The position numbers and the translations under genes are program-made. DNA of 64,000 bases from Arcticibacter svalbardensis MN12-7. Lineage in GTDB: Bacteria; Bacteroidota; Bacteroidia; Sphingobacteriales; Sphingobacteriaceae. The notes under the pieces were generated by a model. That model saw nothing but the letters and a program-made list of their open reading frames with translations. It did not search any database and was not told the DNA's origin. Of this stretch, positions 40,959-58,816 are shown in pieces (position 1 is the stretch's first letter; each line of letters starts with the position of its first letter). The stretch spans positions 1-64,000 of the forward strand of contig NZ_AQPN01000079.1 of NCBI RefSeq assembly GCF_000403135.1. The letters run 5' to 3'.

Positions 40959-42419
40959 TTATGGTTTCGATATACTATTGCCCTTCCCCAAATCATTTAC
41001 ATTGCCAAGACTTTTAACTGTATTCTTTTCGGATAATTGCCCAAGGATAACTGGATATGGTGTACCATTGATTAATGTTATATTGGTTGCTTTATAGCGC
41101 TCATCCTTAAAATACTTAGCGTAATTTTCTTCATAACCTTTCGGTATTTTTGGGAAATCTGTGGTAAGAAATTCAAAACGAGCAGTATAACCAATCACAA
41201 TTGGTCTAAGTGTTGCATCAAATGGCGTTGAATTTCCAACTTGTGTGAGTTTAATTTGATGTCCACTTCCTTTAATGGCGGCAAATACATGGTTGCCTAC
41301 TGCGTATGGAGCAGGTAAAACTTTTAAATCAATCTGTTGGTTAGCAGATGCATCTGAATGCATGTAAATAAGAGGCCCGTAAGCAGCATTTCCACTGCAA
41401 TTGATCATTTTACCACCATTATTCAAAGTAAAGCCTTCTACAATACAATCAAGAACGGTAGAATTGCTAACCTTTACTTCTCCTTTACCTAAATACAATT
41501 TGATACCTCCGCGGCATTTTCTTACAACACAATTTTCAACAGTTACGGAACCAGGAATATTATAAGATCTAATGCCATCCTCTGTAAGGTTTAACATCAC
41601 ATCATGCGGAATTGGCAAGCCTTTCATAGGCCCTAAAGGCATTTTATAATCAAATTTTTTGGGTAAATCTCCATCATTGGTTTCTTTATACACATCGTTA
41701 CTTGGCCTAACATCACCCTCTATATAGGTGTTTTTTATAAGTGTTTTATCCGCTTCTTTCTGCATATAAATTACATGTCCAAATGCTCTATGTTGAAATT
41801 CGCAACTATCTACCGTATTGCCAATACCTGTAATCAATAGTGCACAATGTTTATCTAACCCGGTAGCGTTATCAGCACCAATTCCATACATATTGCCATA
41901 ACCGTAAGGGAAAGAACCGCGTGTTGTCATTTTTACACCTATCACCAAATTGTTATTACCTAATACCTTTATATTGGCATCTCCTTTTATTCCTTTGGCG
42001 AGTGTACTTCTATTTTGATTATAGCTGCCAAAATCCGTCACTTTTTGCATCCCATTTTGATAGGTATCTTCAAATTCTCCGCCCCTTAGGATAATATTTG
42101 AACCTGTTAATATAAAATGAGCCGTGGTAAATTTCCCGACCGGAAAATTGATATAAGCACCAGATAAGTTAATGGTATTATTTGACCCTGAACATGGGAA
42201 ATTTCTTGCATTTTCTGGCAATTCAGTAATGTTGTATTTGCCAGCTTTCAGCACAATAACCTGATTATCGCTTTGTACAGCTTCCCTTAATTCGGAAAGG
42301 GTTGAAACGCTTACATCGGTTTTATGGTGCTCTACATTTGTGTGAACCAAATTGTATGCAAAAGCCAATTGAAAAGCGGTTACTGTAAACACAAGAATTA
42401 ATAATTTTATTTTTTTCAC
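40959..42419 (-). CDS. Secreted right-handed parallel beta-helix protein
   Basis: The 486-residue protein has a signal peptide (KKIKLLILVFTVTAFQLAFA). TLSELREAVQSDNQVIVLKAG near residue 40 is the usual start of a pectate-lyase/chondroitinase-B-type helix. It is followed by many coil repeats such as NTVDSCEFQHRAFGHVIYM and VENCVVRKCRGGIKLY. It is the last gene of the minus-strand degradation operon, 23 bases after the FAD enzyme. It could be a lyase, a hydrolase or a binding protein for the same glycan. Catalytic residues are not identified. Confidence 0.78.
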   Translation of the reverse strand: MKKIKLLILVFTVTAFQLAFAYNLVHTNVEHHKTDVSVSTLSELREAVQSDNQVIVLKAGKYNITELPENARNFPCSGSNNTINLSGAYINFPVGKFTTAHFILTGSNIILRGGEFEDTYQNGMQKVTDFGSYNQNRSTLAKGIKGDANIKVLGNNNLVIGVKMTTRGSFPYGYGNMYGIGADNATGLDKHCALLITGIGNTVDSCEFQHRAFGHVIYMQKEADKTLIKNTYIEGDVRPSNDVYKETNDGDLPKKFDYKMPLGPMKGLPIPHDVMLNLTEDGIRSYNIPGSVTVENCVVRKCRGGIKLYLGKGEVKVSNSTVLDCIVEGFTLNNGGKMINCSGNAAYGPLIYMHSDASANQQIDLKVLPAPYAVGNHVFAAIKGSGHQIKLTQVGNSTPFDATLRPIVIGYTARFEFLTTDFPKIPKGYEENYAKYFKDERYKATNITLINGTPYPVILGQLSEKNTVKSLGNVNDLGKGNSISKP

Positions 42420-42442: not shown

Positions 42443-44128
42443 TTAAGGCTTTATATAACTTAACACCTGTTTATCTGCAATTAATCGCTTACTCAATTCC
42501 CCAAAAGGTAAATCATGTATATCCATTTTTTTATCCAAAGCTAAACCAGCAATCGTCCCTGCACTCTGACCCAATATCATAAAAACTGGTTCCATACGGA
42601 TAGAACCAAATGCAATGTGAGAGCTAGAAACGGCTGAGGGCACGATAAGATTTTTGCATTGTTCTTTTTTCGGTATAATGGTTCCTAAATGAATTTGATA
42701 TGGTTGGTTCGCATCTACACCTAAATCTCCTTCATTTTGCACATATCCTTCAGGGGTAATATAACGCTGAACATTATGAGAATCCATAGTATAAGAGCCC
42801 ATGCCGATTGGTTCATTAACTTTATGCTTCCCTAAAATTTCGTTCTCGGTCATCACAAAATCTCCAACCATCCGCCTGGCTTCTCTTACATATATTTGGT
42901 AAGGCCAGTGTCCATTATCCACAAATTCATCTTTAGATAAACCCCATTTGTTTATATTGTCACGTAAACGTTCCGGCACACTTTCATCATGTCCCCAAAA
43001 GTAAAGTAGCCCTTTATGATAACTGATGTGCTCTTTTAAAATTTCTTTTCTTTTGGCATAAGAAGCTTCTGGATAGTCATAATTCATCCCGATATTATCC
43101 GAACTAAACGGTCCTACATTATTTACATCTCTTTTATTATTTGGGATATTTCCACCGCCAAACATGTTAGTTCGACCCGAGGTGAATACTCTCCTCAAAA
43201 GTTCATATTGTGCAGGATCATAATCTTTCGGTTTTTCAAATGGAACAATGTTTCCTTTAGCATTAGTAGTGCAAAGCCTATAATTATATGCTTGTATTTG
43301 ATGATCACCAGAACCTTGTTCCCCAGGCGCTGCTGTTGATATTCGCGGAAGCACACCACTTGTTGGATCTCCTGGAATTACATAAGGGCTTATGTTTAGA
43401 TTGCCAAAATTATGACTATGGTGAAAAACACCTTTTTGCACCCCGTTCCAAGTTTCGTTATAAACGCTGTTGGCTTCTCTGCCTACGTGATATTTTACAC
43501 CCGCAGCAGCCATTAAATCTCCCTCATATCCTGCGTCAATAAAAATTTTACCTTCAAATTTTTCACCTGTTAACATGGTGATAGATTTAATTGCTCCATT
43601 AACCAGTTCCACTCCATTTTCTCTATCTAACCACTTATCACGATAGATTTTGATTTTATTTTGCTTTATAAAATCTTCAAAAATCTGTTCAGCCACATGG
43701 GGCTCAAAAGTCCACATGGTTTTAGCAACATCATCAATTGCTGTAGTTCCTTGTCCTTCGTTACCATATTCATTTTTAGCTTGCCATTTCCAAACGTCAT
43801 CGTTTTGGTAATGATTATAAACACGCTGATAAAACTCTTTAGAAATTCCGCCAATAACTACTTTGTTACCAATATCTGTAAAACCTAAACCACTGGCAGA
43901 TAATCCACCAATATGCTTTTCCGGACAAACAATAATCACAGATTTATGCATTCTAGAAAGTTGCACTGCAGATGCAATAGCGGTAGAAGTACCTCCATAA
44001 ATAATCACATCTGCTTTAATTGTTTTAGGTTGAGCTATGGTGTTAAAACTAAAAAACAGGATGCTTAAGCTAAATAAAATTAGCAGTTTAATTTGGTGAA
44101 TATTGAAAATAGAATTTAAATTTTTCAT
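42443..44128 (-). CDS. Exported FAD-dependent oxidoreductase (PF12831-like), copy 1
   Basis: The 561-residue protein has an N-terminal signal peptide to about residue 32 (ILFFSFNTIAQ). It then has a dinucleotide-binding fold, DVIIYGGTSTAIASAVQLSR, with an altered glycine motif (GGTSTA). CPEKHIGGLSASGLGFTDIG and IDAGYEGDLMAAAGV match the FAD_oxidored family. YVREARRMVGDF and SSHIAFGSIRMEPVFMILGQ are shared with the adjacent paralogue. The genes are 4 bases apart. Presence in a glycan locus suggests oxidation of a sugar or linkage, but no substrate is known. Confidence 0.87.
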   Translation of the reverse strand: MKNLNSIFNIHQIKLLILFSLSILFFSFNTIAQPKTIKADVIIYGGTSTAIASAVQLSRMHKSVIIVCPEKHIGGLSASGLGFTDIGNKVVIGGISKEFYQRVYNHYQNDDVWKWQAKNEYGNEGQGTTAIDDVAKTMWTFEPHVAEQIFEDFIKQNKIKIYRDKWLDRENGVELVNGAIKSITMLTGEKFEGKIFIDAGYEGDLMAAAGVKYHVGREANSVYNETWNGVQKGVFHHSHNFGNLNISPYVIPGDPTSGVLPRISTAAPGEQGSGDHQIQAYNYRLCTTNAKGNIVPFEKPKDYDPAQYELLRRVFTSGRTNMFGGGNIPNNKRDVNNVGPFSSDNIGMNYDYPEASYAKRKEILKEHISYHKGLLYFWGHDESVPERLRDNINKWGLSKDEFVDNGHWPYQIYVREARRMVGDFVMTENEILGKHKVNEPIGMGSYTMDSHNVQRYITPEGYVQNEGDLGVDANQPYQIHLGTIIPKKEQCKNLIVPSAVSSSHIAFGSIRMEPVFMILGQSAGTIAGLALDKKMDIHDLPFGELSKRLIADKQVLSYIKP

Positions 44129-44132
44129 GTTT

Positions 44133-45779
44133 TTAATTTAGCAATTGTCCATCTTTCAGTAATTGTTCTTTAAGTTTTGCATAGGGTACATTTTGTACTT
44201 TACCATCACCATTAGTAGCCAAAACAGCGGCAGTTGCTGCAGCTTGTCCTAACATCATATAAACAGGTTCCATACGGATGGAGCCATAAGCACTATGCGA
44301 AGCAGAGAGACATACAGGGACTAATAAATTTGAACATTCCTTTTCTTTGGGAGTGATGGATTGATAGCTGATTCCATAAGGACTAACACCTGTCCATTTT
44401 GGAGTATCTGCATGTAAAGCACCGTCTTTATCTACCCAAATTTGGGTTGGATGAGAATCCATTCCATAAGAGCCTAAAGCTACTCGATCATCTACTTTTT
44501 CACCACCTTTTAACTGATTTTCAGTCATCACAAAATCACTTATCATTCTACGCCCTTCGCGTACGTAAAGCTGAAAAGGAAAGTGATCGGTATCTAAAAA
44601 CTCATCTTTAGCATAACCTAGTTTTGATGCTCTTTTACGAACAACTTCTGGTACTCGGGGATGATAAGCCATCGTCCATAACAAGCCTTTAGTGTAAAGA
44701 ATATGTGCTTTGATTATTTTATCTCGTTTGGCATAATCCGCATCTGGATATTCATCAGCCATGCCCATATAATCTGTAGAAACCCAACCAGCTTTGTTTG
44801 TATCTGTTTTATCATTTGGAATTGGATTAGAACCTAATGGAATTCCTTTGGTATTTCCAGCCTCAAACCAACGAAAAAGCAATTCGTACTCAGATTCATC
44901 ATAACCTTTGGGTTTATCAAAAGGCACTCTATTATCTTCTTGCGAGGTTAAGCATAAACGATAGTTATAAGCTTGCACTCGATGATCCCCTTCACCCTCT
45001 TTACCAATAACATCAGCAACTAAACCTTTAATGATACCGCTTGTAGCATCGCCCTGAACTACGTATGGATCTAAAGGTCTTTCTCCCATTCTTGATGGTT
45101 CTTTAGTTTGTACACCGTTAATTTTTTCACCGTATTGCGAATTTGCCTCTCTCCCAATGGTATAAGAAACCTCCGCTTTTGCCATTAAATCGCCTTCGTA
45201 AGTACAATCGATAAAAACTTTAGCTGCAATTTCCAAACCCGATTCCATAGAAATAGAAACGATGCGATTTGCCTGTTTTTTTACGCCTGTCTTTAAATTG
45301 AGTCTTTCATTATAAATTACTTTAACTTTTTCTGAAGCCAACATTTCATTTAATTTCAATTCTGCTACATGGGGTTCAAAAACGAATAAAGCATCATCAG
45401 AAATACGACCGGACTTTGCCCTAGCCAAAAAGTCTTCTTTGGTTTGGAATTTCCAGTTTTTGGGATCTTTATACCACTGGGCAACTTTTTGGTAAAACTC
45501 GCGAGCTACGCCTCCAATTGTGGCTTGCTTACCTACATCAGTATTTCCTAACCCTCCTGATGTCATCCCTCCTAAATGTTTTCCTGGCTCAATTAAAACT
45601 ACGGTTTTACCCATGCGGGCAGCTTGTATTGCAGCAATTACTCCAGATGAGGTACCGCCGTAAACACAAATATCCGTATTTAAACTTTTATGGTTTTCAG
45701 CGCTGGTTACTGCGTTTAGTTTTATAATTGATGTTAATATAAAGCAAAGCGCAAGGATAAATTTAATGCTATTTTTCAT
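44133..45779 (-). CDS. Exported FAD-dependent oxidoreductase (PF12831-like), copy 2
   Basis: The 548-residue protein has a signal peptide (KFILALCFILTSIIKLNA) and DICVYGGTSSGVIAAIQAAR, a more complete nucleotide-binding motif than in copy 1. EPGKHLGGMTSGGLGNTDVG, IDCTYEGDLMAKAEV and YVREGRRMISDFVMTEN show it is a paralogue of the downstream gene. It follows the GH172 gene by 5 bases. A flavin enzyme with a Sec-type signal is notable, because the cofactor would have to be loaded outside the cytoplasm. The reaction is unknown. Confidence 0.88.
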   Translation of the reverse strand: MKNSIKFILALCFILTSIIKLNAVTSAENHKSLNTDICVYGGTSSGVIAAIQAARMGKTVVLIEPGKHLGGMTSGGLGNTDVGKQATIGGVAREFYQKVAQWYKDPKNWKFQTKEDFLARAKSGRISDDALFVFEPHVAELKLNEMLASEKVKVIYNERLNLKTGVKKQANRIVSISMESGLEIAAKVFIDCTYEGDLMAKAEVSYTIGREANSQYGEKINGVQTKEPSRMGERPLDPYVVQGDATSGIIKGLVADVIGKEGEGDHRVQAYNYRLCLTSQEDNRVPFDKPKGYDESEYELLFRWFEAGNTKGIPLGSNPIPNDKTDTNKAGWVSTDYMGMADEYPDADYAKRDKIIKAHILYTKGLLWTMAYHPRVPEVVRKRASKLGYAKDEFLDTDHFPFQLYVREGRRMISDFVMTENQLKGGEKVDDRVALGSYGMDSHPTQIWVDKDGALHADTPKWTGVSPYGISYQSITPKEKECSNLLVPVCLSASHSAYGSIRMEPVYMMLGQAAATAAVLATNGDGKVQNVPYAKLKEQLLKDGQLLN

Positions 45780-45784
45780 TTATT

Positions 45785-47434
45785 TTATTTTGGTTGGTTT
45801 GGGAAACCCGCTGGTAATGGTGGTATTACTAAGGCGCCTTTTGGGTCTGGCTTCCTGTTAGAAAATATATTTTTATCTCCATACCAATAAACCCCTACTC
45901 CATAACCCATATTACAATCAGTCCAACTCCAAATTTCCATATCCAATTTTAAGGCACTTCCAAAAGGCATGGTATCTAATGAGCGTGTACGTGTTTCAGT
46001 ACTGTAACCTAAAGTGTTTTTATCATTACTGGTTTTGCGGTTTAACTTATTGTACACAAAACTGCGTGGTTGAGCATGAAAAGGGTGCTCGTAAAAATCA
46101 TTACTTTGTCCTCCCCAGGAATAACCATAATAATCCTCAGTTCCGGTTCCAAAAATAGAAGGGAAATTTTCGTTATCTACCCATATTTTCTCGTCTCCCT
46201 CACCCCACCATCTAGCAACAGGATTCATAACAGTTAAAGCATCACCAACATACACACCACGACCTTTTAAAGTTATATAATTCCAATCCGAATAAGGACG
46301 AGTTGCAACAGGATATTGACCTCGCCATGCGGCATTAAAGTACATGCTTTGTTCGTCCCATTTCCAAGCTCCAACTTTAGCTTTTAATTGGATGTTTACT
46401 GCTGTTTCACTTAAATTTTCAATGGTGATTTTACCTGTTTTTTGATAAGGCATTACCCATCTGGCAGACATTATTCCGTCTTCGTCAACTGTAGTATACC
46501 ACCCTTTAAAAGGATTAAGACCTATACCCGTTCCAAAAAAATCACCTATTGGGCACCAAACCGTTTGTTCTCCGTCAAATTCCATTTTAACAATTACCGA
46601 ACGTGTGATAGATGGATCTTTATAATCAGAAAGTTTTATACTAAAATTTCGAACAGCCGCATTCCCTTTTGGTAATTCTATCGATTTTTGTTTTTTTGAA
46701 TCTAATTTAGCTTCAATAGCAATCTCTTTACCATCTTTTGCTTCTTGAGGGCTAACCAATGTTTTACCAACTTGTTCAATCAATGGTTTAACCTTATTAA
46801 AATCAGCCATGCTAAAAGTTTTTACTGCTGTTCCTATAGGATATTTTTGATAAGTAAACTGGTAAAAAAATGGCATTCCTGTTGTAGTAATCTTACAGGA
46901 TTTAGCATAAGGAATTGGGAAAAAAGAAACTGCTGACTTTAAAGATTTATGTGCAAAAGGATAAGGAAATAAGCCTGTACCATTTAATAAACCTAACATA
47001 TTGCCTTCTAAAACTGGTCTATTGCTTCCATCTAAGTATATTTTAATTTGAATATCAGTTTCTGGCTTATTCGCAGTCCTAAATGGCATCCACGTTCGAA
47101 CAATTGCACCAGCACCTTCATCTTCCATTAAAACCCATTCCTTTTGCCCATTATTTTCTTCGGTTCGGATAAAATTGTGGTCAGTTTCTTTGGTATTATT
47201 ATCCTTATTATCAAACCAACCTACCGTATCTTGTGGCGTTTTTGAGGCTCTGTTGTAACTACTTTGTTGTTTTAACCTAAAATCGGATTTAGGAAAACGA
47301 GCAATGGCATCGCGGTTAACCATCTCTTTTAATAAAGACTCAATAGTAATTTGCTCCTTATTTTGGGCATTCAACATTCCAGCGTAAGCCAAAGCTAAAC
47401 CGCATAATAAAATCTTAATTCCTATTTTTTTCAT
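45785..47434 (-). CDS. GH172 (DUF2961) glycoside hydrolase
   Basis: The 549-residue exported protein has a signal peptide (KILLCGLALAYAGMLNAQ). WVLMEDEGAGAIVRTWMPF near residue 100 contains the conserved acidic motif of DUF2961. FPSIFGTGTEDYYGYSWGG near 425 and DCNMGYGVGVYWYGD near the C-terminus are also typical. Characterised GH172 members act on arabinofuranosyl or fructosyl linkages and form trimers. Its place beside fucosidases suggests a furanose in the target glycan. Confidence 0.9.
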   Translation of the reverse strand: MKKIGIKILLCGLALAYAGMLNAQNKEQITIESLLKEMVNRDAIARFPKSDFRLKQQSSYNRASKTPQDTVGWFDNKDNNTKETDHNFIRTEENNGQKEWVLMEDEGAGAIVRTWMPFRTANKPETDIQIKIYLDGSNRPVLEGNMLGLLNGTGLFPYPFAHKSLKSAVSFFPIPYAKSCKITTTGMPFFYQFTYQKYPIGTAVKTFSMADFNKVKPLIEQVGKTLVSPQEAKDGKEIAIEAKLDSKKQKSIELPKGNAAVRNFSIKLSDYKDPSITRSVIVKMEFDGEQTVWCPIGDFFGTGIGLNPFKGWYTTVDEDGIMSARWVMPYQKTGKITIENLSETAVNIQLKAKVGAWKWDEQSMYFNAAWRGQYPVATRPYSDWNYITLKGRGVYVGDALTVMNPVARWWGEGDEKIWVDNENFPSIFGTGTEDYYGYSWGGQSNDFYEHPFHAQPRSFVYNKLNRKTSNDKNTLGYSTETRTRSLDTMPFGSALKLDMEIWSWTDCNMGYGVGVYWYGDKNIFSNRKPDPKGALVIPPLPAGFPNQPK

Positions 47435-47452: not shown

Positions 47453-48080
47453 TTAAAGTTTTATAATAATTTCATCTCCATTAAAGATCACTTCTTCTTG
47501 CTTTGTTTTTCCAACAAACCCAATAATTAATTTCATAGGATTTTTAGAAAAGTTGATGAATTGATCTGAATCATTTTTAAGCGTTAAGGTTTTTGAAGTT
47601 TCTGAATAAGCGAAATTAAACTAAACCATAAATAGCTTCATCTCCAACTGCAAAAGATTGCGAAACCTTATTTCCCTGATTTTTTGGATTAATGTAAGTG
47701 TAATCTTTAGTTTCAGATAGTAGTTTATTATCCTTTTGGTTTTGATATTGAATATTACCGTTGGCATTTACAATCACTTTTACAGAATCGGTACTGATGA
47801 TTACCTGCCCATTTTTTTCAGCTACTTGCCAAGGTGTTTTTTGAGGAGATAAAACGGTTACATAATCAGGAATTTTAGATGCAACAGAATTATCCAGCAC
47901 CTTCTTGATATGAATAATGTAATGATCAATAATTTGAACTTGTAAGATTGAACTATCTACATGAATAGTTACCGTATTATCTGATTTTTCGTACTTGAGC
48001 AAAGATTTAACTTTACAACCAGCCATTAAACAAATACAAACCACAGATACTAAAAAACTATTCTTTTTGAGATTAAACAT
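47453..48080 (-). pseudogene. Gutted GH31 gene: both ends present, centre missing
   Basis: A 154-residue frame from 48080 begins with the lipoprotein signal KNSFLVSVVCICLMAGC. It continues as the GH31 N-terminal domain (VTIHVDSSILQVQI, PQKTPWQVAEKNGQVIIS) and stops right after GDEAIYGL, which in intact GH31 leads into the catalytic barrel. Immediately after, in a different frame, the end of a GH31 C-terminal domain appears: AYSETSKTLTLKNDS and FVGKTKQEEVIFNGD, ending IIIKL and stop at 47453. The catalytic barrel of several hundred residues is deleted. The gene keeps its operon position between GH29 and GH172. Confidence 0.78.
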
Positions 48081-48096: not shown

Positions 48097-49479
48097 CTAT
48101 AAGCTAATTGCTCCTTTTAACTTCACTTTTATAACCGTTGCAATAGCATCTGGTGCTGTTACAGGTAATTGTAAACTAACAATTTTATTGTTTGTACTTA
48201 CTTTTACTTCTTTCCCATTTTGTAACAAAGCAGCATCTACAACGTTATTATCGAAAGCCGGCAATACCAATTTGCCATCTGTAGGCCAATTAAATACTGA
48301 AAAATAAAGCACCGTATTTCCATTTTCTACTTTTTGTGTACAACGTCCCCATTCTAATTTTTCAAAAGGGCTTGCATTTACGCCATAAACTGCTTCAGCA
48401 TTAGTTTTGGTCCAATTGCCCATTTCTTTTAATCGATCTACACTTTCTTGAGGAATAACACCTTCAGAAGTTGGTCCAACGTTCAATAAAAAGTTTCCAC
48501 CTTTAGAAACTATATCTATCAAATTTTGAATCAACACTGTACTACTTTTCCAGTTATGATCTGATTTTTTAAAACCCCAAGTACGATTAATTGTCATACA
48601 AGATTCCCAAGCTTCTGGAATTCCTTTAGCAGGAATTTCTTGTTCGGGTGTAAAAAAATCTCCCGCGAAATCTCCTTTTTTAGATTTGATGCTCATACCG
48701 GTACGGGCTTTATCCACTCTGTTATTTACAATGGTATTTGGCTGTATTTCTCTGATGTAATTATATAGCTCTTTTCCCATCTCAGTGGTATAATCAGCAA
48801 TCCAATCTCCATCAAACCATACTACACCGATATCGCCATAATTGGTTAAAAGCTCTTTAACTTGTGGTTTCATATAATTCTCAAAGTATTTTGGAAACTC
48901 TGGATTAACGATAGTTTGATCTTTTTGCCCGGCATTGTAATTAGGAAAAAGAGGTGCTTGTGCTTGTGGATGATGCCAATCTACAATAGAATAGTAAACA
49001 CAAAATTTTATATCTGCTTTTTTACAAGCTTCTGCAAGCTCTTTAATAATATCTCTTTTAAATGGCGAGGAATCCATAATATCATAATTAGATATTTTAG
49101 AATCCCACATTGCAAAACCCTCGTGATGTTTTGAAGTTAGTACAATGTATTTCATACCTGCATTTTTGGCAATTGAAACCCAATCATCAGCATTAAATTT
49201 TACTGGATTAAATTGTGCCGCATATTTTTCGTATTCCTTCACTGGGATATCCAATTTATCCATTATCCATTCGGCATTTCCTTTAACCGTGTCTCCTTTA
49301 TACTCTCCGGCAGGAATAGCGTATAAGCCCCAATGTATAAACATACCGAATTTTGCATCGTGCCACCATTTCATACGCTCTTCATCGTTCAGCTTTTTTT
49401 GCATAACCGCTTTCTGAGCATTGGCATATGTAATGCTCATTAGCATTATTGCTATTATTAATTTTAATCTTTTCATCAT
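48097..49479 (-). CDS. GH29 alpha-L-fucosidase
   Basis: The 460-residue exported protein has a signal peptide (LKLIIAIMLMSITYANA). WWHDAKFGMFIHWGLYA near residue 38 and YIVLTSKHHEGFAMWDSK near 112 are GH29 hallmarks. The nucleophile is D223 in VVWFDGDW. GGNFLLNVGPTSEGVIP follows near residue 330. It releases terminal alpha-L-fucose by a retaining mechanism in the periplasm or outside the cell. The gene lies between the sulfatase and the gutted GH31 gene. A second GH29 gene is at the right window edge. Confidence 0.94.
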   Translation of the reverse strand: MMKRLKLIIAIMLMSITYANAQKAVMQKKLNDEERMKWWHDAKFGMFIHWGLYAIPAGEYKGDTVKGNAEWIMDKLDIPVKEYEKYAAQFNPVKFNADDWVSIAKNAGMKYIVLTSKHHEGFAMWDSKISNYDIMDSSPFKRDIIKELAEACKKADIKFCVYYSIVDWHHPQAQAPLFPNYNAGQKDQTIVNPEFPKYFENYMKPQVKELLTNYGDIGVVWFDGDWIADYTTEMGKELYNYIREIQPNTIVNNRVDKARTGMSIKSKKGDFAGDFFTPEQEIPAKGIPEAWESCMTINRTWGFKKSDHNWKSSTVLIQNLIDIVSKGGNFLLNVGPTSEGVIPQESVDRLKEMGNWTKTNAEAVYGVNASPFEKLEWGRCTQKVENGNTVLYFSVFNWPTDGKLVLPAFDNNVVDAALLQNGKEVKVSTNNKIVSLQLPVTAPDAIATVIKVKLKGAISL

Positions 49480-49494
49480 GTTTAACTTATGCTT

Positions 49495-51315
49495 TTAAAT
49501 TTTTTCTATACTTACATAATAAGCACCTATGGTTTCATTTTTACCTAAAGTAAAAAACGATTGAAGTTTTGCTTCTCCTTTTTTAAGTTTCACCTCAAAT
49601 TCAAGGAATTCTGGATTTCCAGTTACATTTTTAGAAAGCTCTATCCCTTGTATGCTTATGGCGGCTTTGGTAATTTTTAGCGCCTTTCCTTCATTACTCG
49701 CTGTTACCGTTGTACCTGCAATTGCTGGTCTGGCAGGTATGCCTTCATTTATTCCAACATGAATTTCTTCTGGCCATCTACGAAGCTTAATTTTATATGT
49801 TCCACTTTGATCTACTTTTAATAACCAATATCCGTTGTCTTTATAACCATCTCTTATTAAATTTTGGTTCCAAGGACTATCTTTATCAGTATGCCAATCG
49901 TGGCAATATAATGTTACCGGATTTACACCTTGATGTCCAATATAGATAAGTGGAAAAATTTTAAAGTTTGGTTCAAGTTTCTTCCACCAAGCAGCATACT
50001 CTTTTTTATATTCATTTACTTTATCAGGATACTTACTGGCAATATTATTACGCTGCTCTGGATCAATTTTAATATCATAAAGTTCTGTCCCGTTGATTAA
50101 GCGCCAATTTTCTTGCATTAAAGAAGTGCGTTTCCATGCTATTGGGGTTTCATCTCTTTGCGAATCGGTAATTATTATTCTATCCTTAAAGTCTTTAGTA
50201 TCTCCTTTTATAAGGGGCGCCAAACTTTTACCATCAAAATTCAAATTTTTGTTTAATTTAAGCTTACATAGTTCAACTAAAGTTGGGAAAATATCGTAAT
50301 GTGCTGTAAGCTCATTAATATCTGTACCTACAGAAATTCCACCATCTTTCCAGTGCATAAACAACGGCACTCGGTGACCGCCTTCGTACATACTTGCCTT
50401 TAAACCCCTCATTCCTGCATTAAACCCTTTTGAAACAAAACCATCAGCACCATTGCCTAAAAGATCTGCACCAGCAGAAGATCCATTATCAGTACTGAAA
50501 ATTAAAATGGTATTATCCAATTGCTTTGTTGATTTTAAGTAAGTGATTAATTTCCCAATGTTCTCATCAACATTTGAAATCATACTGTAAAAAGCTGCAT
50601 TAGGAATATTTGGGTTGTTTTCATATTGTTTTGAATATTTGTCAGCAACGTAATACGGTATGTGTGCTGCATTGGTAGGGATATAACAGAAATAAGGTTT
50701 GTTTTTATTGCCTTCAATAAATTTAATTGCATTTTCAAACCAAACATCGGTGCAATAACCTTTATATTTTTCTAACTTTCCATTATGCGAATAGGTATCG
50801 TCAAAATAATCATTATCAAAATAATCTGGAGTTTGATTAACGCCTCCTCCTCCATTAATTAAAACTTCTTCAAACCCCTTATCTTGAGGACGTGATGGAT
50901 AATAATCACCAAGGTGCCATTTACCGAAAATCCCTGTAGCATATCCGTTTTCTTTAAAAGATTGCGCCATAGTAGTTTCTCTTTCTAAAAGTATAGACCG
51001 ACCATTTATAGTGTGCCAAACTCCAGCTCTATCAGCATGACGACCAGTCATTAAAGCCGATCTAGTAGGCGCACAAGTTGGACTAACATGATAATTGGTA
51101 AATCTTGCACTTTCGTTATATAGCGCATCCATATTTGGGGTTTTAATGTATTTATTACCCAAACATGCCAAATCTCCATATCCTTGATCATCAACCAAAA
51201 TTATAATAACATTGGGCTGCTTAATTGGTACTGTTTTAGCCTGTAATAGGTTTAAAGCATCGGTTATTACAAAGATAATTACCACTAAAAAATATTTACT
51301 TTTTATCATAATCAA
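49495..51315 (-). CDS. S1-type sulfatase with C-terminal extension
   Basis: The 606-residue exported protein has the formylglycine motif C81-A-P-T-R in SPTCAPTRSALMTGRHADR, and VDDQGYGDL with metal-binding Asp residues near residue 42. GKWHLGDY, STDNGSSAG and EGGHRVPLFMHW are other S1 landmarks. Residues after about 440 form an additional beta-type domain, absent from the shortest sulfatases. It should remove sulfate esters from a glycan or aglycone; maturation by an anaerobic or copper-type formylglycine enzyme is needed and is not encoded here. Its start overlaps the acetylesterase stop by 4 bases. Confidence 0.93.
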   Translation of the reverse strand: MIMIKSKYFLVVIIFVITDALNLLQAKTVPIKQPNVIIILVDDQGYGDLACLGNKYIKTPNMDALYNESARFTNYHVSPTCAPTRSALMTGRHADRAGVWHTINGRSILLERETTMAQSFKENGYATGIFGKWHLGDYYPSRPQDKGFEEVLINGGGGVNQTPDYFDNDYFDDTYSHNGKLEKYKGYCTDVWFENAIKFIEGNKNKPYFCYIPTNAAHIPYYVADKYSKQYENNPNIPNAAFYSMISNVDENIGKLITYLKSTKQLDNTILIFSTDNGSSAGADLLGNGADGFVSKGFNAGMRGLKASMYEGGHRVPLFMHWKDGGISVGTDINELTAHYDIFPTLVELCKLKLNKNLNFDGKSLAPLIKGDTKDFKDRIIITDSQRDETPIAWKRTSLMQENWRLINGTELYDIKIDPEQRNNIASKYPDKVNEYKKEYAAWWKKLEPNFKIFPLIYIGHQGVNPVTLYCHDWHTDKDSPWNQNLIRDGYKDNGYWLLKVDQSGTYKIKLRRWPEEIHVGINEGIPARPAIAGTTVTASNEGKALKITKAAISIQGIELSKNVTGNPEFLEFEVKLKKGEAKLQSFFTLGKNETIGAYYVSIEKI

Positions 51316-52973
51316 TTGTTGTTTGTTTTGAATAACGATGCTGGCAAACCTTCTTTATTATATAAATTTGCTCCTTCTGGGTTAGACGACCAAGCATACC
51401 TCACCTCTATTGGTTGTGAAATTCGGGGATGCCATACTTCCACTTTATTTTTATCAATAATTCGAGCTTCTGCCCATTTCCATTGCTGATCTGCACCACA
51501 AATTTGAAAACGTTTTAAGGGTTCGTTTACTTCAACTGTTGGGTTCAGCAATTGCTTTTTCCCTACCATTAAACCCGAGCCAGCATTATCAAAGTGGATT
51601 ACCATCTTACTCCCCTTAACTTCAGCATTTTTGTATAATGGTCCGCTATAAACGATATTTTGACCATAAGCCTGATGTAGAGCCCATAAGGAAAGTCTTT
51701 TTCCAACTTCCATTTTATTTTTTGGATGAATATCTGAGGCTTCACCAATATCATTTAATACCGCTAATCCTGTGTTGTTAAGTTTTAGAATTTGACTTTG
51801 CTGATAAGAAATTGTAGCCCATCCATCTTCATCTCCAACAGGCTCTTTATTTGGAGATCTATAATTTGCTAATTGACTACAAAAGAAAAAGAATTGTTTT
51901 TGTCCCCAAGCTGCTCTCCAGCCTTCAACTAAAGCCGCAAGTCGTAGCCCATAATCATTAGCGGAATTATCTGTATTACTTTCTCCTTGATACCATATTG
52001 CGCCTTTAACAGCGAAAGGAACAAGTGGGTGAACCATGGCGTTGTAGAGTGTTCCTGGCACTTGCTTATCTCGGGCTGGAGATTCTATTTTTCGAGGTTT
52101 ATCTGGTGCTTTTTCGCCTTTTGTTTCTGCCGACTTTACTTTTTCTTCCCACTCAACAAGCAATTGTTTATACGCTGTATTAGCTTTTTGCTCATCCCAG
52201 TTTGAAAGATTTTCTTTGTAAGCGGCTATTTCTCCATCATAATATGCTTTCAAAGAACTATTTTTCTCATAAGCATTGATAGGCATCCAAGGTTCAATAC
52301 GGGTTGCACCTAAATTGCAACTGATAATGGCTACAGGAACGTTTAATTTTTGACGCAATTCTTTCCCGAAGAAATAAGCAGTGCCGCTAAACTCGTTAAC
52401 CTCAACAGGTATCGCTTTTGACCATTCGCCTCTCCCATTCGTTTGCTCTTCCAACACACTAAAACTGTTACCCACTTTAAACTGACGAAATAAAGGATCG
52501 TTTGCTGTAGCTGCTTCATTCCTTAAATAGGCTACCGCTGGTTCATAAGCGGGATCTGTTGCTTCTCCCATCAACATTCTAAATGGACGGTACATGTTAG
52601 ATTGTCCGCTACAAAGCCAAACCTCCCCAACTAAAACATCCTTTATTTTAATCTCTTTCATTTTGTTGTCCCATTTAGAAGTAATGGTCATCATTTGGGG
52701 TTCAGCCGAAGCCCTTAAAGCATCCAAATCTATTCTCCAATTTCCATCAAGATTTACTTTTACCGATTTACTTTGCCCTGCAAACAACACATTCACAATT
52801 GCATTTGCCTGTGCTGTGCCCCAAACTGGCACTTTTTGCTGACGTTGTAAAACCATCTGATCTGCAAAGATGCTAGGCATTGAAAAATCTTGCGCAAAAG
52901 AGTTATTAGTCAGCAGTAACGTAAGAACTATTATTAAGCGGCTAAGCTTTAGCTTAGATAAATGCTTTCTCAT
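51312..52973 (-). CDS. SASA-family sialate/carbohydrate O-acetylesterase
   Basis: The 553-residue exported SGNH-type esterase has a signal peptide (SRLIIVLTLLLTNNSFAQ). VWLCSGQSNMY contains the nucleophile S125, and GAIWYQGESN is near residue 330. DIGEASDIHPKNKMEVGKR provides the Asp and His of the triad. It should strip O-acetyl groups from the target polysaccharide before the glycosidases act. The stop overlaps the start of the sulfatase by 4 bases, giving coupled expression of two de-esterifying enzymes. Confidence 0.92.
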   Translation of the reverse strand: MRKHLSKLKLSRLIIVLTLLLTNNSFAQDFSMPSIFADQMVLQRQQKVPVWGTAQANAIVNVLFAGQSKSVKVNLDGNWRIDLDALRASAEPQMMTITSKWDNKMKEIKIKDVLVGEVWLCSGQSNMYRPFRMLMGEATDPAYEPAVAYLRNEAATANDPLFRQFKVGNSFSVLEEQTNGRGEWSKAIPVEVNEFSGTAYFFGKELRQKLNVPVAIISCNLGATRIEPWMPINAYEKNSSLKAYYDGEIAAYKENLSNWDEQKANTAYKQLLVEWEEKVKSAETKGEKAPDKPRKIESPARDKQVPGTLYNAMVHPLVPFAVKGAIWYQGESNTDNSANDYGLRLAALVEGWRAAWGQKQFFFFCSQLANYRSPNKEPVGDEDGWATISYQQSQILKLNNTGLAVLNDIGEASDIHPKNKMEVGKRLSLWALHQAYGQNIVYSGPLYKNAEVKGSKMVIHFDNAGSGLMVGKKQLLNPTVEVNEPLKRFQICGADQQWKWAEARIIDKNKVEVWHPRISQPIEVRYAWSSNPEGANLYNKEGLPASLFKTNNN

Positions 52974-53016: not shown

Positions 53017-55812
53017 TTAAGGAATTTTAACTTCAAATTTTTTAAAATTATAATCTCTTGCTGCGGTAACGATTATTGTTTTCCCTTTATTAATTTCAAA
53101 CTGTTTTTTTAAAGCAGCTATGTTTTGAATTTTATTGCCATTAACTTGTTGTATTACCCAGTCTGCCGGTAATTGAGCTGTTATCCATATTTTTCCTTTT
53201 TCGGGATCGATGGATTTGATATAGCAACCATAATTATATCCACCTGTAGCGTCAATTAAATCAGGATCATCAGCAATATTGATTAATAATGCGCCTTCTA
53301 ATTCCATTTCGAGTGCTTTCTTATTTGTCTTTCCTTCTTGTCCTTCATATTTACCAGTTAACAATGTACTTAGCCAACTTGGATAAACTACTTCATTTAC
53401 TTTGGTAAAATTGGCTTCGTTTACAAAACCTATTGAAATTCCATTTTTATCAAATGTTTGTGCTTTTAAAAGGGTTGAATTTTTAATATTTATAGCACCT
53501 TTATATTTTTGAGAATGAATACTTGGTTCAGAACCATCAAGCGTGAAGTAAATATCAGCTTCTTTTCCACCTCTTTTATCTGCTATTACCTCCACTTTTG
53601 TTTCTCCCGAAAAATCTCCTCCAAAAGGTTTTATCCTGGTCATCTCATGGCCAAACTCATCCATTGGGAAATTTTTAAAGCCCAATTTTAAAGCTGGCGA
53701 ATTTGCCTGAACTTGATAATTTCCATTCTTTGGATCAACAAATAAAGGGTCTGCTACTTTTGATTTCTCATCAAAACCTTTTTCCTGCCATTGTTTAAAA
53801 GTTACTTTATCCACGATGTACTCATTCTTTGGCGCATTTACATTCCAATATAAATTATCATCGTAATGAGTACTCCATTTGGTATCGGTAGGCAATCCAA
53901 CTTGTCTGATATAACTATTGGTAGGTTCTGCATTACCTGGAATAGCTCCAGAAATCACAAAAATGTTTTTATAAATCTCATCTTCAGATGCTTTTGGCCA
54001 AACATGCCAACCTAGCGGGACAGCACTTACAGTAATATTGTTAAACACTTTTCTCAACATCCCATCTCGTAATTTGATAGTTGATCCTAAATTAAGGTTA
54101 TGATAAATTTCATAATTACTTGAACCATCATCCAAATCTATCGTCCAATTTCCGGCGCTAATAGATTTACGATAATTTGCAATTTTATTATTCCTCACAA
54201 TAACCGGGTCTATTGCATCAAGCTTGGTAAGCTCTTTCATAAAATCTGCATCGGTTCCTCTTGAACCACTCCATTGCCTTTCTCTACCCCAAGCATTAAA
54301 AGGCCCATGTTCTCCGGTTTCCCTTACGGTTTCCCAAATGTCATTATACTCTATAATATGCCCCCCCCAAGTGCCATCATTAATACATATACCTGCTCTC
54401 GGACAATTATAAATGGTATTGTGTGATGCTACTATTTTGTGGCTCATAGAAATATAAACGCCTGCGACTTGCTTACCTACATCTCCAATATCATGCATCA
54501 CGCTATTTTCTACTATGCAATTTTCTGGGTAATCAGGTGTTTTTGGGCCTGATGTTAAATCCATGTTTTTACGCATTTCATTCCAGTTTTTTCCATAAAT
54601 TTCTTTGTCATCCCAAGTTTGATAAAAGCGTACAGCAGATGGAGAGCCTACAAAACAAACAGCACTCTCGCCAGTATGTACAAAACGACAAGATTTCACT
54701 TGGTTGTTCCGGTTATAGCTGCTCATAAAAACACCATTACCGCCAACATATTCAAAATTGCAATCTTCTACCACACAATTTTCAGCACCTTCCATAAATA
54801 TGGCTCCGCCTCTGTGTATTGCCCAATCTCCACGAGCAACAGGCTCGTACTTATCCATATAGGTATAGCGAGATTGTGTAAAATTGAGTCCTTTAAAACT
54901 GATGTTTTTTACTGGCGATTCTTTAGTACCAATCAATTGAATAAAGTCTTTTAAAATGGGGACTTCTACCTTAGCATTTTTAAATTCTTGAATATTCTGT
55001 GGATAATAATACAGCAGTTTTGCTTTTGTATCCAAAAACCATTCGCCTGGAGTATCTAACTCTTCAAATATATTATCTACAAAAAACCAAGAAGCACTTT
55101 CACCAGAGCCTCCAATACCATGATCTCTTTGTAATTGCCAACCGCCTTCTCCTAAATAGAGCTTGTTTTCTGTGCGATTAACCTCTTTTACTCGGTACTG
55201 CATATTGCCCCAATTATGACTCTGGAAAGCATGTACTATTCCTGTTTCGGGGTTTTTCCAGTCTTTATTGGTAAAGGTTTTTGAATCAAAAGACAACCAT
55301 TTATCATATCTATGATTTGTACCTCCTATTACTTGCTGGTAACCATTACCTCCACGTAGTGGATTTTCATAATCATAATCTGGGAAACGGGCTCTTACTT
55401 TTCTTTCTCCATTGATAAATACTTGGTCGAAAGTTAAGCCAGAAGGAACCGATGCGACATAAATACCATTTTTATAGGCATTCCATTTTAAGTTTTTCAG
55501 TTCTTTTGAGCCTTTGATATTTACTTTAGAACCAGGCAAAGCAGAAAATAGTACTGGATTTTTTAACGAACCAGAGGATTCAATACCTATCGTGATTGTT
55601 TTATTCAAATAATAATCTCCCTCTAAAAACCAAACATGAACAGGTTCTTTTCCAGCAAATTTCTTGGTCTCTAATAGTGCTCTTTCAAAGCTTAAAAAAG
55701 GCTGCACTTTTGTCCCTACATTTTTATCGCTACCGATTGAAGAAACATAAATTTCTTTAGCCATAACTGAGTTGATACCTAGAAAAAGTGTAATTAAAAT
55801 AAATATTCTCAT
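53017..55812 (-). CDS. GH141-like beta-helix glycosidase with two C-terminal domains
   Basis: The 931-residue exported protein starts KEIYVSSIGSDKNVGTKVQPF with LSFERALLETKKFAG, the usual start of beta-helix enzymes. Residues to about 680 form the helix with GGNGVFMSSYNRNNQV and GDVGKQVAGVYISMSHKIV coils and resemble GH141-type fucosidase/xylanase proteins. A chitobiase-like C-terminal domain follows (DIYFTLDGSEPSIHSQKYKG, about 760-820). The last 85 residues look PDZ-like (WVIQQVNGNKIQNIAALKKQ). The gene is 43 bases upstream of the acetylesterase. GH141 fits the fucosidase-rich context but is uncertain. Confidence 0.75.
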   Translation of the reverse strand: MRIFILITLFLGINSVMAKEIYVSSIGSDKNVGTKVQPFLSFERALLETKKFAGKEPVHVWFLEGDYYLNKTITIGIESSGSLKNPVLFSALPGSKVNIKGSKELKNLKWNAYKNGIYVASVPSGLTFDQVFINGERKVRARFPDYDYENPLRGGNGYQQVIGGTNHRYDKWLSFDSKTFTNKDWKNPETGIVHAFQSHNWGNMQYRVKEVNRTENKLYLGEGGWQLQRDHGIGGSGESASWFFVDNIFEELDTPGEWFLDTKAKLLYYYPQNIQEFKNAKVEVPILKDFIQLIGTKESPVKNISFKGLNFTQSRYTYMDKYEPVARGDWAIHRGGAIFMEGAENCVVEDCNFEYVGGNGVFMSSYNRNNQVKSCRFVHTGESAVCFVGSPSAVRFYQTWDDKEIYGKNWNEMRKNMDLTSGPKTPDYPENCIVENSVMHDIGDVGKQVAGVYISMSHKIVASHNTIYNCPRAGICINDGTWGGHIIEYNDIWETVRETGEHGPFNAWGRERQWSGSRGTDADFMKELTKLDAIDPVIVRNNKIANYRKSISAGNWTIDLDDGSSNYEIYHNLNLGSTIKLRDGMLRKVFNNITVSAVPLGWHVWPKASEDEIYKNIFVISGAIPGNAEPTNSYIRQVGLPTDTKWSTHYDDNLYWNVNAPKNEYIVDKVTFKQWQEKGFDEKSKVADPLFVDPKNGNYQVQANSPALKLGFKNFPMDEFGHEMTRIKPFGGDFSGETKVEVIADKRGGKEADIYFTLDGSEPSIHSQKYKGAINIKNSTLLKAQTFDKNGISIGFVNEANFTKVNEVVYPSWLSTLLTGKYEGQEGKTNKKALEMELEGALLINIADDPDLIDATGGYNYGCYIKSIDPEKGKIWITAQLPADWVIQQVNGNKIQNIAALKKQFEINKGKTIIVTAARDYNFKKFEVKIP

Positions 55813-55993: not shown

Positions 55994-57199
55994 CTAATGC
56001 CAAGTAATTTTAGCCTTTCTAGTTTCTGTATTCACCCAAACACTCGCATGTTCAAATTCTCGGGTAAACTCCCAACTATTTGGATTTACTCTATTATACG
56101 CTGCTTTAGGACTTCCAAGTGGTTTTGAAAGTTCTGGATAATCTATCAGGTTACCGTCTGATAAATTCCATCCCCAGTTCCATTGAAGATAAGAATAAGG
56201 TTGTGCTCCGATAAGGAAACAGGATAAATAATATTCTAACTGATCTTTAGAGCGTTTAATCATACCGTCTGTATTTGTTGCACCGATAGTTATATCGGTA
56301 GGACCTTTACCCTTTGCACCAAACCGATAAATCGTCATTTTGCCTGCTTTTGAAATTTTCAACATATCATCCCATTCTTTAAGTAAATTTTCCTTCCTTA
56401 AAGTTTCTGGATTAGCATGTTCGAACATAAAAGCATCACAAAAAGGGAAAACCGCCTCATTATCGGCTGCATTATTACCAATAAGTATCTTGCTAGAACC
56501 TATTTTTTGTTTAAGTGCCGCCATCATTTCAGCTTTTGCCTGTACAATTTCAGGCTCTTTTTCTGCAGGGTAACCAGATTGTCCAGTTGGATTCATACGA
56601 TCGATAAAAATACCGTCGGCACCTGTAAGCTTAACGCCTTCCGCGGCTTGTTCTACCCACCATTTACGAAAATCAGGATTTAAATAGTCAAAGTAGTAGG
56701 TAAATGCTGGACCGTTAGTCTTTTCCATCAATTTCCCGGTCTTAGGATTTTTGACTAAAAATGCTGTTGTAGGTTTCTTTGCAGCAACACCGGCTGGAGT
56801 AAGATCTTTATTAAACCGGGTAAATGGCCAAGCAACAAATGAATTGTAATAGTATAATACCTTGATACCAGGCTTGACTTTGTGAAATGCGTCTACCTCT
56901 TGTTTTGTACCAAGTACGACGTCGCCTAAAGCGTTAAATCCATGAGATTTTTCAATCGTTATAAAATCGGTTCTTTTCGCAATAAACTCAACTTCATCTG
57001 GTTTAAGCACTCGGTCAATATCACCGAAATGGTAGTACATCGGCGTAGTTTCCCAACTAAATTTTGGGGCAAATGTATTTTGTTTAAAATCGGTACCATC
57101 GCTTATTTGCGATGGAGAACTTTTTTGGGCACAAGCCCCCAAGCTTAATATGCTTAATCCCGCTATACTTAGCGTTATTATAACTTTTGTTCCGGTCAT
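55994..57199 (-). CDS. Exported putative glycoside hydrolase (GHL15-like), copy 1
   Basis: The 401-residue lipoprotein has a signal ending SLGAC near residue 23. YYHFGDIDRVLKPDEVEFI begins the fold, and LTGADGIFIDRMNPTG near 200 carries an Asp typical of TIM-barrel glycosidases of the GHL/DUF types. ILIGNNAAD and PYSYLQWNWGWNLSDGN are further conserved blocks. It is a close paralogue of the gene upstream, with one stretch of 56 bases identical. The family name GHL15 is a best guess. Substrate unknown. Confidence 0.75.
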   Translation of the reverse strand: MTGTKVIITLSIAGLSILSLGACAQKSSPSQISDGTDFKQNTFAPKFSWETTPMYYHFGDIDRVLKPDEVEFIAKRTDFITIEKSHGFNALGDVVLGTKQEVDAFHKVKPGIKVLYYYNSFVAWPFTRFNKDLTPAGVAAKKPTTAFLVKNPKTGKLMEKTNGPAFTYYFDYLNPDFRKWWVEQAAEGVKLTGADGIFIDRMNPTGQSGYPAEKEPEIVQAKAEMMAALKQKIGSSKILIGNNAADNEAVFPFCDAFMFEHANPETLRKENLLKEWDDMLKISKAGKMTIYRFGAKGKGPTDITIGATNTDGMIKRSKDQLEYYLSCFLIGAQPYSYLQWNWGWNLSDGNLIDYPELSKPLGSPKAAYNRVNPNSWEFTREFEHASVWVNTETRKAKITWH

Positions 57200-57409: not shown

Positions 57410-58612
57410 TTAATTCCAGGTAATCTTTGCCTTTCTAGTTTCTGTATTAACCCAAACATGTGCATGTTCAAATTCTCGGGTAAATTCCCAACCATCTGGG
57501 GTTACACGTTTAAAAGCTGCTTTGGGTGCGCCAAGTGGTTTTTGCAATTCTGGATATCTTATCAAATTTCCATCCTCTAAATTCCATCCCCAATTCCATT
57601 GAAGATATGAATAAGGTTGTGCTCCGATAAGGAAACAGGATAAATAATATTCTAACTGATCTTTTGACCTTTTTACCATTCCATCTGTTTTTGTTGCCCC
57701 AACAGTGATGTCGGTAGGACCTTTTCCCTTTGCGCCAAAACGATAAATTGTCATTTTCCCAGCTTTAGCAATGCGAAGCATATCGCCCCATTCTTTAAGC
57801 AAATTTTCTTTGCTGGTAACTATTTCATTATAATGCTCAAACATAAAAGCATCGCAAGAAGGAAAAACATCTTTGTTATTGGCAGCATTATTACCTATCA
57901 ATATTTTATCGGGTCCTATTTTTTGTTTAAGTGCAGCCATCATTTCGCCCTTGGCTTTGGAAACTTCAGCTAATTTATCTTGTGGATAACCTGATTTTTC
58001 ATCAACATTCATTCGATCAATAAAAATACCATCGGCACCAGAAACCTTAACACCTTCTGCAGCAGACTCTGCCCACCATTTACGAAAATCTGGATTTAAC
58101 GCATCAAAATAATAAGAAAAATTCGGCTTAAGTTTTGTCGTAAGTTCTCCAGTTTTTGGGTTAATCTCCAAGAATTTTTTTAATTCCTTATTTTTTTCGA
58201 TACCTTCTGGAGTAAATTCTTTATTAAACCTTGTAAAGGGCCAAGCAACGTAAGAATTGTAATAGAATAACACTTTAGCATCAGGCTTGATTTTATGGAA
58301 TGCCCCTACCTCCTGCTTTGTGCCGAGAACTGCATCGCCTAGTTCATTAAATGCGTGTGATTTTTCGATACAGATGAAGTCTGTTCTATCGGCAATAAAT
58401 TTTACTTCTTCTGGTTTTAAAACTCGATTAATATCACCAAAATGATAGTACATTGGTGTGGTTGACCAGCTAAATTTTGGGAAAAATGTTTTTGATTTAA
58501 AAATGGTGCCATCGCTCACCAGCAATGGCGATTTTTTTTGAGCATAGGTACAAAAGCTTAATGTTGCTAAACCCAACATAACCAGTACAATATTGAATAT
58601 TTTCCTATTCAT
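57410..58612 (-). CDS. Exported putative glycoside hydrolase (GHL15-like), copy 2
   Basis: The 400-residue protein, from the ATG at 58612, has the signal peptide KIFNIVLVMLGLATLSFC. It is colinear with copy 1: YYHFGDINRVLKPEEVKFI, SGADGIFIDRMNVDE and QPYSYLQWNWGWNLEDGN. An upstream start at 58657 would place a lysine-rich tail before the signal and is less likely. By eye about 70 percent of residues agree with copy 1. It lies 205 bases after the GH95 stop. The two copies may act on slightly different substrates. Confidence 0.75.
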   Translation of the reverse strand: MNRKIFNIVLVMLGLATLSFCTYAQKKSPLLVSDGTIFKSKTFFPKFSWSTTPMYYHFGDINRVLKPEEVKFIADRTDFICIEKSHAFNELGDAVLGTKQEVGAFHKIKPDAKVLFYYNSYVAWPFTRFNKEFTPEGIEKNKELKKFLEINPKTGELTTKLKPNFSYYFDALNPDFRKWWAESAAEGVKVSGADGIFIDRMNVDEKSGYPQDKLAEVSKAKGEMMAALKQKIGPDKILIGNNAANNKDVFPSCDAFMFEHYNEIVTSKENLLKEWGDMLRIAKAGKMTIYRFGAKGKGPTDITVGATKTDGMVKRSKDQLEYYLSCFLIGAQPYSYLQWNWGWNLEDGNLIRYPELQKPLGAPKAAFKRVTPDGWEFTREFEHAHVWVNTETRKAKITWN

Positions 58613-58816
58613 GATTATAATATTTTTTTTAATTATTACTGTCCTCACTGATTTCACTATATTTTATTTGCAAAAATCACTACCCGCCTTAACCTCTATA
58701 TGCTGAATTTCATGATAAGTAAAAATAAATCGTTGAAATCCCTAAATTTTACATTCTATTTTTCTCAAATTGTTCTTTAATTATCTCATTCAATTTCTAA
58801 AGAATTTTAAAAAAAC

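Follow-up and report, generated by a model that had tools for sequence, protein, structure and literature searches.

Tandem PF12831 flavoproteins in a fucoidan-type glycan locus of Arcticibacter svalbardensis

Accounts of glycan breakdown in Bacteroidota have centred on hydrolases, lyases, esterases and sulfatases. A redox-assisted form of it is represented by NAD-dependent oxidation-elimination of the Gfo/Idh/MocA type. The subject of the present analysis is a pair of adjacent genes, here called A and B, that encode flavoproteins of the Pfam family PF12831 in a glycan locus of Arcticibacter svalbardensis MN12-7; they lie in the first 64,000 nucleotides of contig NZ_AQPN01000079.1, and this whole stretch is referred to throughout as the window. 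For flavin enzymes, the closest described chemistry is the oxidation of glycosides by GMC enzymes prior to bond cleavage (PMC10646112), and an FAD-dependent oxidoreductase, whose family is not stated, has been reported in Maribacter forsetii in the vicinity of a SusC/D pair with high expression (PMC11345257). In view of these two reports it is too strong to say, as the original prediction for this stretch had done, that an oxidative step would be new for such loci.

What A and B would have in common with the GMC glycoside 3-oxidases and flavin glucoside 3-dehydrogenases is the proposed flavin-dependent oxidation of a sugar unit (PMC10646112), but neither protein contains a GMC_oxred domain, PF12831 being the only family matched at E 0.001. 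Both also differ from the Gfo/Idh/MocA routes in having no GFO_IDH_MocA domain at the same threshold, although the two kinds of gene can occur together: at one related locus (L134:7912-18732) a single run holds SusC-SusD, a pyruvyl-transferase-like protein, a Gfo/Idh/MocA protein, a PF12831 protein and an MFS transporter. As a general partner Gfo/Idh/MocA was rejected, the 6 loci found by one seed being too few for use. PF12831 is itself a broad family, with matches in 14 of 14 control genomes, and a search confined to the open-access literature (and so no proof of absence) found no functional study of the branch to which A and B belong.

The reading favoured here, with moderate confidence, is that the pair consists of exported FAD-dependent sugar oxidoreductases, both of them full enzymes, in a locus targeting a fucose-decorated, uronic-acid-containing sulfated polymer. 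It draws on matches to the full length of PF12831, confident structural models with an FAD/NAD-like part, a set of invariant residues, export-type N-termini, the link of A to GH29 and GH95 genes, the organisation of the locus as a polysaccharide utilisation locus (PUL), the adjacency of SusD genes to members of the family, and a fusion of one relative to a sulfatase.

Two intact flavoprotein genes and the question of a heteromer

The open reading frames (ORFs) of A and B both appear intact, B being transcribed before A across a gap of 4 bases (44129-44132). Each matches PF12831 (FAD_oxidored) over the full profile, 1-416, and far above the cut-off of 27 bits, with 335.3 bits for A and 366.1 bits for B, and the two align with each other at 42% identity across 549 columns (E 3e-159). 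The ORF coordinates, the Pfam matches and this identity together confirm the original description of a paralogous, PF12831-like pair 4 bases apart; its placement between a GH172-type and a beta-helix gene is borne out as well, by the DUF2961 match and the PDB relatives of the one and by the relationship of the other to the fucoidan lyase FdlA. The Sec-type signal peptides proposed at the same time fared less clearly: both N-termini look like export signals, as judged by eye and with a crude hydrophobicity script. A crude script likewise sorted the N-termini of an 86-row alignment (A1) into 58 Sec-like, 25 lipobox-like, 2 Tat-like and 1 unclassified, and the test is not a sharp one because 17 of the 35 window ORFs of at least 250 aa also have a hydrophobic N-terminus; the export route of A and B is thus putative. 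Alignment A1 consists of A and B together with homologues drawn from a larger list, 71 of its 85 A-type sequences and 13 of its 17 others; it leaves out sequences from G-numbered genomes and those that were cut short, long-tailed or distant, while three homologues of odd length had been dropped earlier.

The structural models (AlphaFold2) are confident, with a pLDDT of 90.6 for A and of 87.9 for B, the latter having a weak loop at about 71-80. When A was compared with solved structures using VIA-align, the 50 best rows gave Z values of 15.7-17.9 over 172-295 residues, chiefly in the nucleotide-binding part, and came from many families of FAD/NAD enzymes, while for the 50 Foldseek matches listed the TM value by model length was at most 0.31. 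Since these structural matches are confined mainly to the nucleotide-binding part and spread over many FAD families, they are silent on the reaction. Searches by sequence for solved relatives, using single sequences and the 86-row profile, yielded nothing of use, the profile matching at E 0.001 no more than a short nucleotide-binding stretch of one chain.

The nucleotide-binding motif had been read correctly in the original prediction as GGTSTA in A and GGTSSG in B, and this difference led to the proposal of a heteromer with one active subunit, which would leave flavin binding or catalysis to B alone. To place the difference in its family, the last residue of the motif (position 50) was read in 166 homologues, and its column was excluded from the tree built from them with FastTree (also kept out of the tree were members of at least 1000 aa, those with a matched span of up to 420 or a score of up to 200 bits, and the loci L001-L008 and L090-L126, which are short). 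A belongs to a clade of 112 members (support 100), in which position 50 is Ala in 93 and Gly in 19, and the remaining 54 homologues have Gly in 53 cases and a gap in one. The change from Gly to Ala is a trait of the clade and not the decay of one partner. Elsewhere the two proteins are hard to tell apart in their conserved residues: at 34 positions chosen for conservation in alignment A1 (itself a subset of the 166), B agrees with A in 33, position 50 being the sole difference, and 24 of the 34 are identical in all 166 homologues, A and B included. R284, R415, E416, R418, R419, D449, H451, S501, H504, R511 and E513 (A numbering) are invariant in 166 of 166 and H367 is kept in 162; these conserved residues are putatively catalytic. 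B itself sits on a long and weakly placed branch (support 4), its nearest sequences in the tree being mostly tandem partners of A-type genes, but this closeness may be a sampling effect, since it was only through lying near A that non-A sequences from the 77-locus set described below entered the tree.

The other evidence bearing on a heteromer comes from pairing. Two sets of loci were used, the first comprising 77 A loci, the best of 479 stretches in which homologues of A were confirmed, and the second 40 loci sampled at approximate intervals from the list of B-like genes in the order. In the first set 8 loci have close family members as direct neighbours on one strand, which makes 12 pairs: 8 of the pairs run non-A then A, so that the order B-A of the window is the commonest, 2 run A then non-A, and there is 1 each of non-A/non-A and A/A. 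The second set has 2 pairs, the first running non-A then A and the other being non-A/non-A. The recurrence of such pairs, in the order seen here, and the spacing of only 4 bases between A and B are what a heteromer has in its favour, together with a deficit of A/A pairs relative to the mix in the 40-locus set, but this deficit is weak (p 0.02), related loci having been counted separately so that the pairs are partly non-independent. Against it stand the conserved positions already described and the distribution of A: 67 of the 77 A loci have no adjacent PF12831 gene, even when L079 and L085, where a distant family member stands beside A, are counted as paired (in 6 of the 77 one neighbour falls outside the available stretch), and the nine closest orthologues of A showed no B-type gene next to them over the stretches covered, which for L018 amount to 12.7 kb only. 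Mixed tandem pairs therefore recur, but A needs no adjacent partner, and the combination that would mark an active/inactive heteromer, namely loss of residues in one partner with constant pairing, is absent. The proposal of one active subunit is accordingly not supported and seems improbable, coming last among the rivals considered here, after a non-sugar substrate and then a reductive or redox-neutral role; A and B would more naturally be independent enzymes.

Glycan genes around A and its relatives

The nine closest orthologues of A, 71-76% identical to it, come from Pseudozobellia, Maribacter (three), Aureibaculum, Tamlana, Gramella, a metagenome-assembled genome of Draconibacterium, and Marinoscillum. 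A GH29 or GH95 gene lies near 8 of these 9, as against 1 of the 68 more distant loci of the set, and it is for A that membership of a glycan locus, as first proposed for the pair, is most clearly borne out. Taken family by family, the nine have GH29 nearby in 7 cases, GH95 in 5, GH141 in 5, HepII/III-like in 7 (the seed itself being a weak Pfam match below cut-off), GDSL in 8 and FdlA-like in 3, compared with 1, 0, 0, 0, 3 and 0, respectively, among the 68; 25 of these 68 span at least 20 kb, and within those 25 GH29 occurs only in L024. A survey of co-occurrence with GH29, GH95 and GH172 had been suggested together with the original prediction, and it thus comes out positive for the first two with close orthologues and negative for GH172, which was rejected as a constant partner of A (1 of 9 close loci, 1 of 68 others). 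The distant A loci contain GH78 in 10 cases and GH106 in 5, and the surroundings of other homologues include GH78, GH106, GH3, GH88, GH92 and GH97 genes. The family as a whole is widespread, 120 of the 300 genomes covered in the order carrying a B-like gene at E <=1e-50 (the best match to B there being 49% identical) in addition to the 479 stretches with A homologues, and it is not confined to GH29/GH95/GH172 loci; on the refuting condition set with the original prediction, wide occurrence outside glycan loci, this counts against it. In the same genome as A and B, two more strong PF12831 genes lie close to a GH88 match (C96:9045-25128).

Immediate neighbours were tallied by Pfam family, the tallies covering 57 of 75 upstream and 48 of 73 downstream neighbours of A, and 88 of 100 listed neighbours in a further tally, with the 25 commonest families listed in each case. 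A sulfatase is the same-strand neighbour of A, no more than 300 bases away, in 9 of the 57 upstream and 6 of the 48 downstream cases. In one metagenome assembly a sulfatase and an A-type PF12831 protein are fused in a single ORF of 968 aa (L042:2240-5146), and at another locus (L127) a DUF7133 protein with matches to cytochrome c and to glucose/sorbosone dehydrogenase is found nearby.

A more general association is that with SusD. In the 40-locus set a SusD homologue is present in 30 loci, counting either strand over the 12-18 kb mapped, and a SusD gene lies directly upstream of a family gene in 10 of 46 cases as against 12 of 186 control ORFs (p 0.004); the corresponding figures in the 77-locus set are 8 of 100 and 4 of 452 (p 2e-4). 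ORFs below 110-120 aa are unmapped in all these locus maps. Eight loci have a same-strand run behind SusD that is made up solely of PF12831 genes, accompanied in some by a CstA-type transporter: five are L052, L070, L072, L167 and L172, and the other three (L129, L135 and L136) belong to a set of 16 loci that were hand-picked, partly for tandem pairs, and serve as examples only. L135 and L136 share gene sizes and should be counted once. Because the end of a run was defined by a change of strand or a gap of more than 400 bases, with ORFs under about 110 aa invisible, these runs are predicted operons. Pfam confirms CstA in L072, L129, L131, L132 and L135, and both SusD and the SusC-type receptor in L070, L135 and L167, while the remaining SusC, SusD and CstA labels rest on similarity to those seeds; an ORF of 1080 aa in L072 is also PF12831 by Pfam. 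Runs of the form SusC-SusD-PF12831(-PF12831)-CstA are seen in L129, L131, L132, L135, L136 and L165, and a SusC-SusD locus at L058:1-21517 has five PF12831 ORFs, one of them of 1102 aa with several matched stretches.

CstA-type transporters are known for the transport of pyruvate or peptides, and one lies directly 3' of a family gene in 7 of 146 cases as against 1 of 638 controls. This enrichment, the loci that continue behind SusC-SusD with PF12831 genes only, and the presence of amine and amino-acid oxidases among the Foldseek matches would all suit enzymes that act on something other than a sugar (e.g. an organic acid, an amino compound or a phenolic substituent of the polymer) and that merely travel with glycan loci. 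Such a role is, however, rather unlikely: the oxidase matches rest mainly on the nucleotide-binding part of the fold, A's own orthologues are linked with GH29, GH95 and GH141, and other homologues have the GH families listed above in their surroundings. A bolder possibility, which can only be put forward tentatively, is that exported PF12831 flavoenzymes are themselves degraders, SusC-SusD loci with 1-4 such genes and no other recognised gene (except, in some, a CstA-type importer) degrading their polymer by flavin chemistry and importing what results, without any glycoside hydrolase or lyase; A and B, as a non-A-then-A tandem, would then contribute two complementary flavin steps.

Several observations weigh against sugar oxidation by A and B in a glycan locus. 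A glycan-type gene was found in at least 43 of the 77 A loci only, a seed-based lower bound, and 10 of the 40 loci sampled across the order have no SusD in the mapped stretch. Sulfatase was rejected as a specific partner, adjacency being 16 of 100 as against 45 of 452 controls (p 0.11) in one set and 0 of 46 as against 0 of 186 in the other. No solved structure among the best 50 listed aligns with more than 295 of the 561 residues of A, no electron acceptor was found among the locus genes scanned (several cluster genes beyond the window being unscanned), and the CstA-type transporter downstream of some homologues may point to a non-sugar product.

The surrounding locus and its probable polymer

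The genes around A and B are collected in Table 1. The names of the PDB relatives of the DUF2961 neighbour (exo-alpha-D-arabinofuranosidase and difructose dianhydride I synthase) presumably tie it to GH172. The GH31-type fragment is probably a remnant, and the small ORFs at 61757-62514, between the GH95 and the following GH29 gene, look by eye like the remnant of a transposase. Past the end of the window the cluster continues with the rest of that GH29 gene, a beta-helix gene, a sulfatase, another GH29, a transposase, GH30, a GH88 match, SusD, a split SusC, GH39 and GH3. With GH29, GH95, GH141-like, sulfatase, SusD and split SusC genes in one cluster, the locus has the make-up of a PUL, although SusC/D lie some 30 kb from A and B and the split receptor may be broken.

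Table 1 Features of the locus; coordinates with the prefix C79 extend or lie beyond the window.
Feature	Coordinates	Strand	Details
Beta-helix protein related to fucoidan lyase FdlA	40959-42419	minus	486 aa, GTG start; phmmer E 8.6e-32 to 7xz8
A, PF12831 flavoprotein family	42443-44128	minus	561 aa; export-type N-terminus; GGTSTA motif
B, PF12831 flavoprotein family	44133-45779	minus	548 aa; export-type N-terminus; GGTSSG motif
GH172-type (DUF2961)	45785-47434	minus	549 aa; Pfam 216 bits; PDB relatives 8ic8, 7v1v
GH31 N-terminal-like fragment	47616-48080	minus	154 aa, without catalytic domain; PF13802 21.7 bits, below cut-off 27
GH29 alpha-L-fucosidase family	48097-49479	minus	Pfam 349 bits
Sulfatase family	49495-51315	minus	Pfam 188 bits
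SASA-type carbohydrate esterase family	51312-52973	minus	Pfam 64 bits
GH141-like protein	53017-55812	minus	Pfam GH141_M 31.5 bits, cut-off 27
GHL15 hypothetical glycosyl hydrolase	55994-57199	minus	Pfam 162 bits
GHL15 hypothetical glycosyl hydrolase	57410-58657	minus	Pfam 174 bits
GH95 family	58817-61318	minus	Pfam 593 bits
GH29	62877-64000, continuing past the window (C79:62877-64619)	minus	Pfam 306 bits, whole protein
Transposase	C79:68872-69645		same cluster
SusD	C79:76745-78523		seen beyond the window
SusC-type receptor	C79:78529-81707 (L183)		two ORFs, 526 and 519 aa; first with Plug

The nature of the polymer is suggested by the beta-helix neighbour of A. The action of FdlA lies between the mannose and glucuronic acid units of a polymer with fucose branches, and the exchange of any of seven residues nearly abolished its activity (PMC9410043). 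Among these (the numbering in the paper is offset by 17 from that of the chain, as checked at the seven positions), H176, E236, R240 and Y242 are kept in the neighbour, while F179 is replaced by Tyr, D137 by Asn and K141 by Ile; the neighbour may be a lyase whose substrate site has changed. A relative of it in Pseudozobellia (L013:4189-5574) has Ser and Leu at the D137 and K141 positions. Given the relationship to FdlA and the cleavage specificity of that enzyme, a fucose-decorated, glucuronomannan-like substrate can reasonably be inferred for the locus.

A putative lyase next to A also raises the possibility that A and B work in the opposite direction, reducing the unsaturated uronate left by such an enzyme, or that they break glycosidic bonds in a redox-neutral manner via FAD. 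The GH88 match within the PUL would fit this, as would the resemblance in structure of the FAD part to fumarate and urocanate reductases. In a comparison with the fumarate reductase/succinate dehydrogenase flavoproteins, the rows for flavocytochrome c3 and urocanate reductase align 220-227 of the 561 residues with Z 15.7-17.0. However, these rows stand alongside many other families of FAD enzymes that the same part matches equally well, the FdlA-like and HepII/III-like seeds found nothing in the 68 distant loci (other lyases being unsearched), and the FdlA-like protein, whose lyase activity is putative, is without two of the seven essential residues, so that a reductive or redox-neutral role appears unlikely.

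Oxidation of sugars thus remains the favoured role for A and B. The lyase-like protein, the sulfatases and the fucosidases would free oligosaccharides from the polymer, whereupon A and B would each oxidise a hydroxyl of a sugar residue on these oligosaccharides to give a keto-sugar or lactone, which other enzymes would then cleave or import; the two would differ in specificity and might act either in sequence or side by side. Should this be correct, a widespread family of exported flavoproteins, often encoded behind SusC-SusD, would add a redox step to the breakdown of algal and plant polymers, with one subclade of it tied to fucose-type loci, and this might account for loci that have transport genes but no known cutting enzyme.

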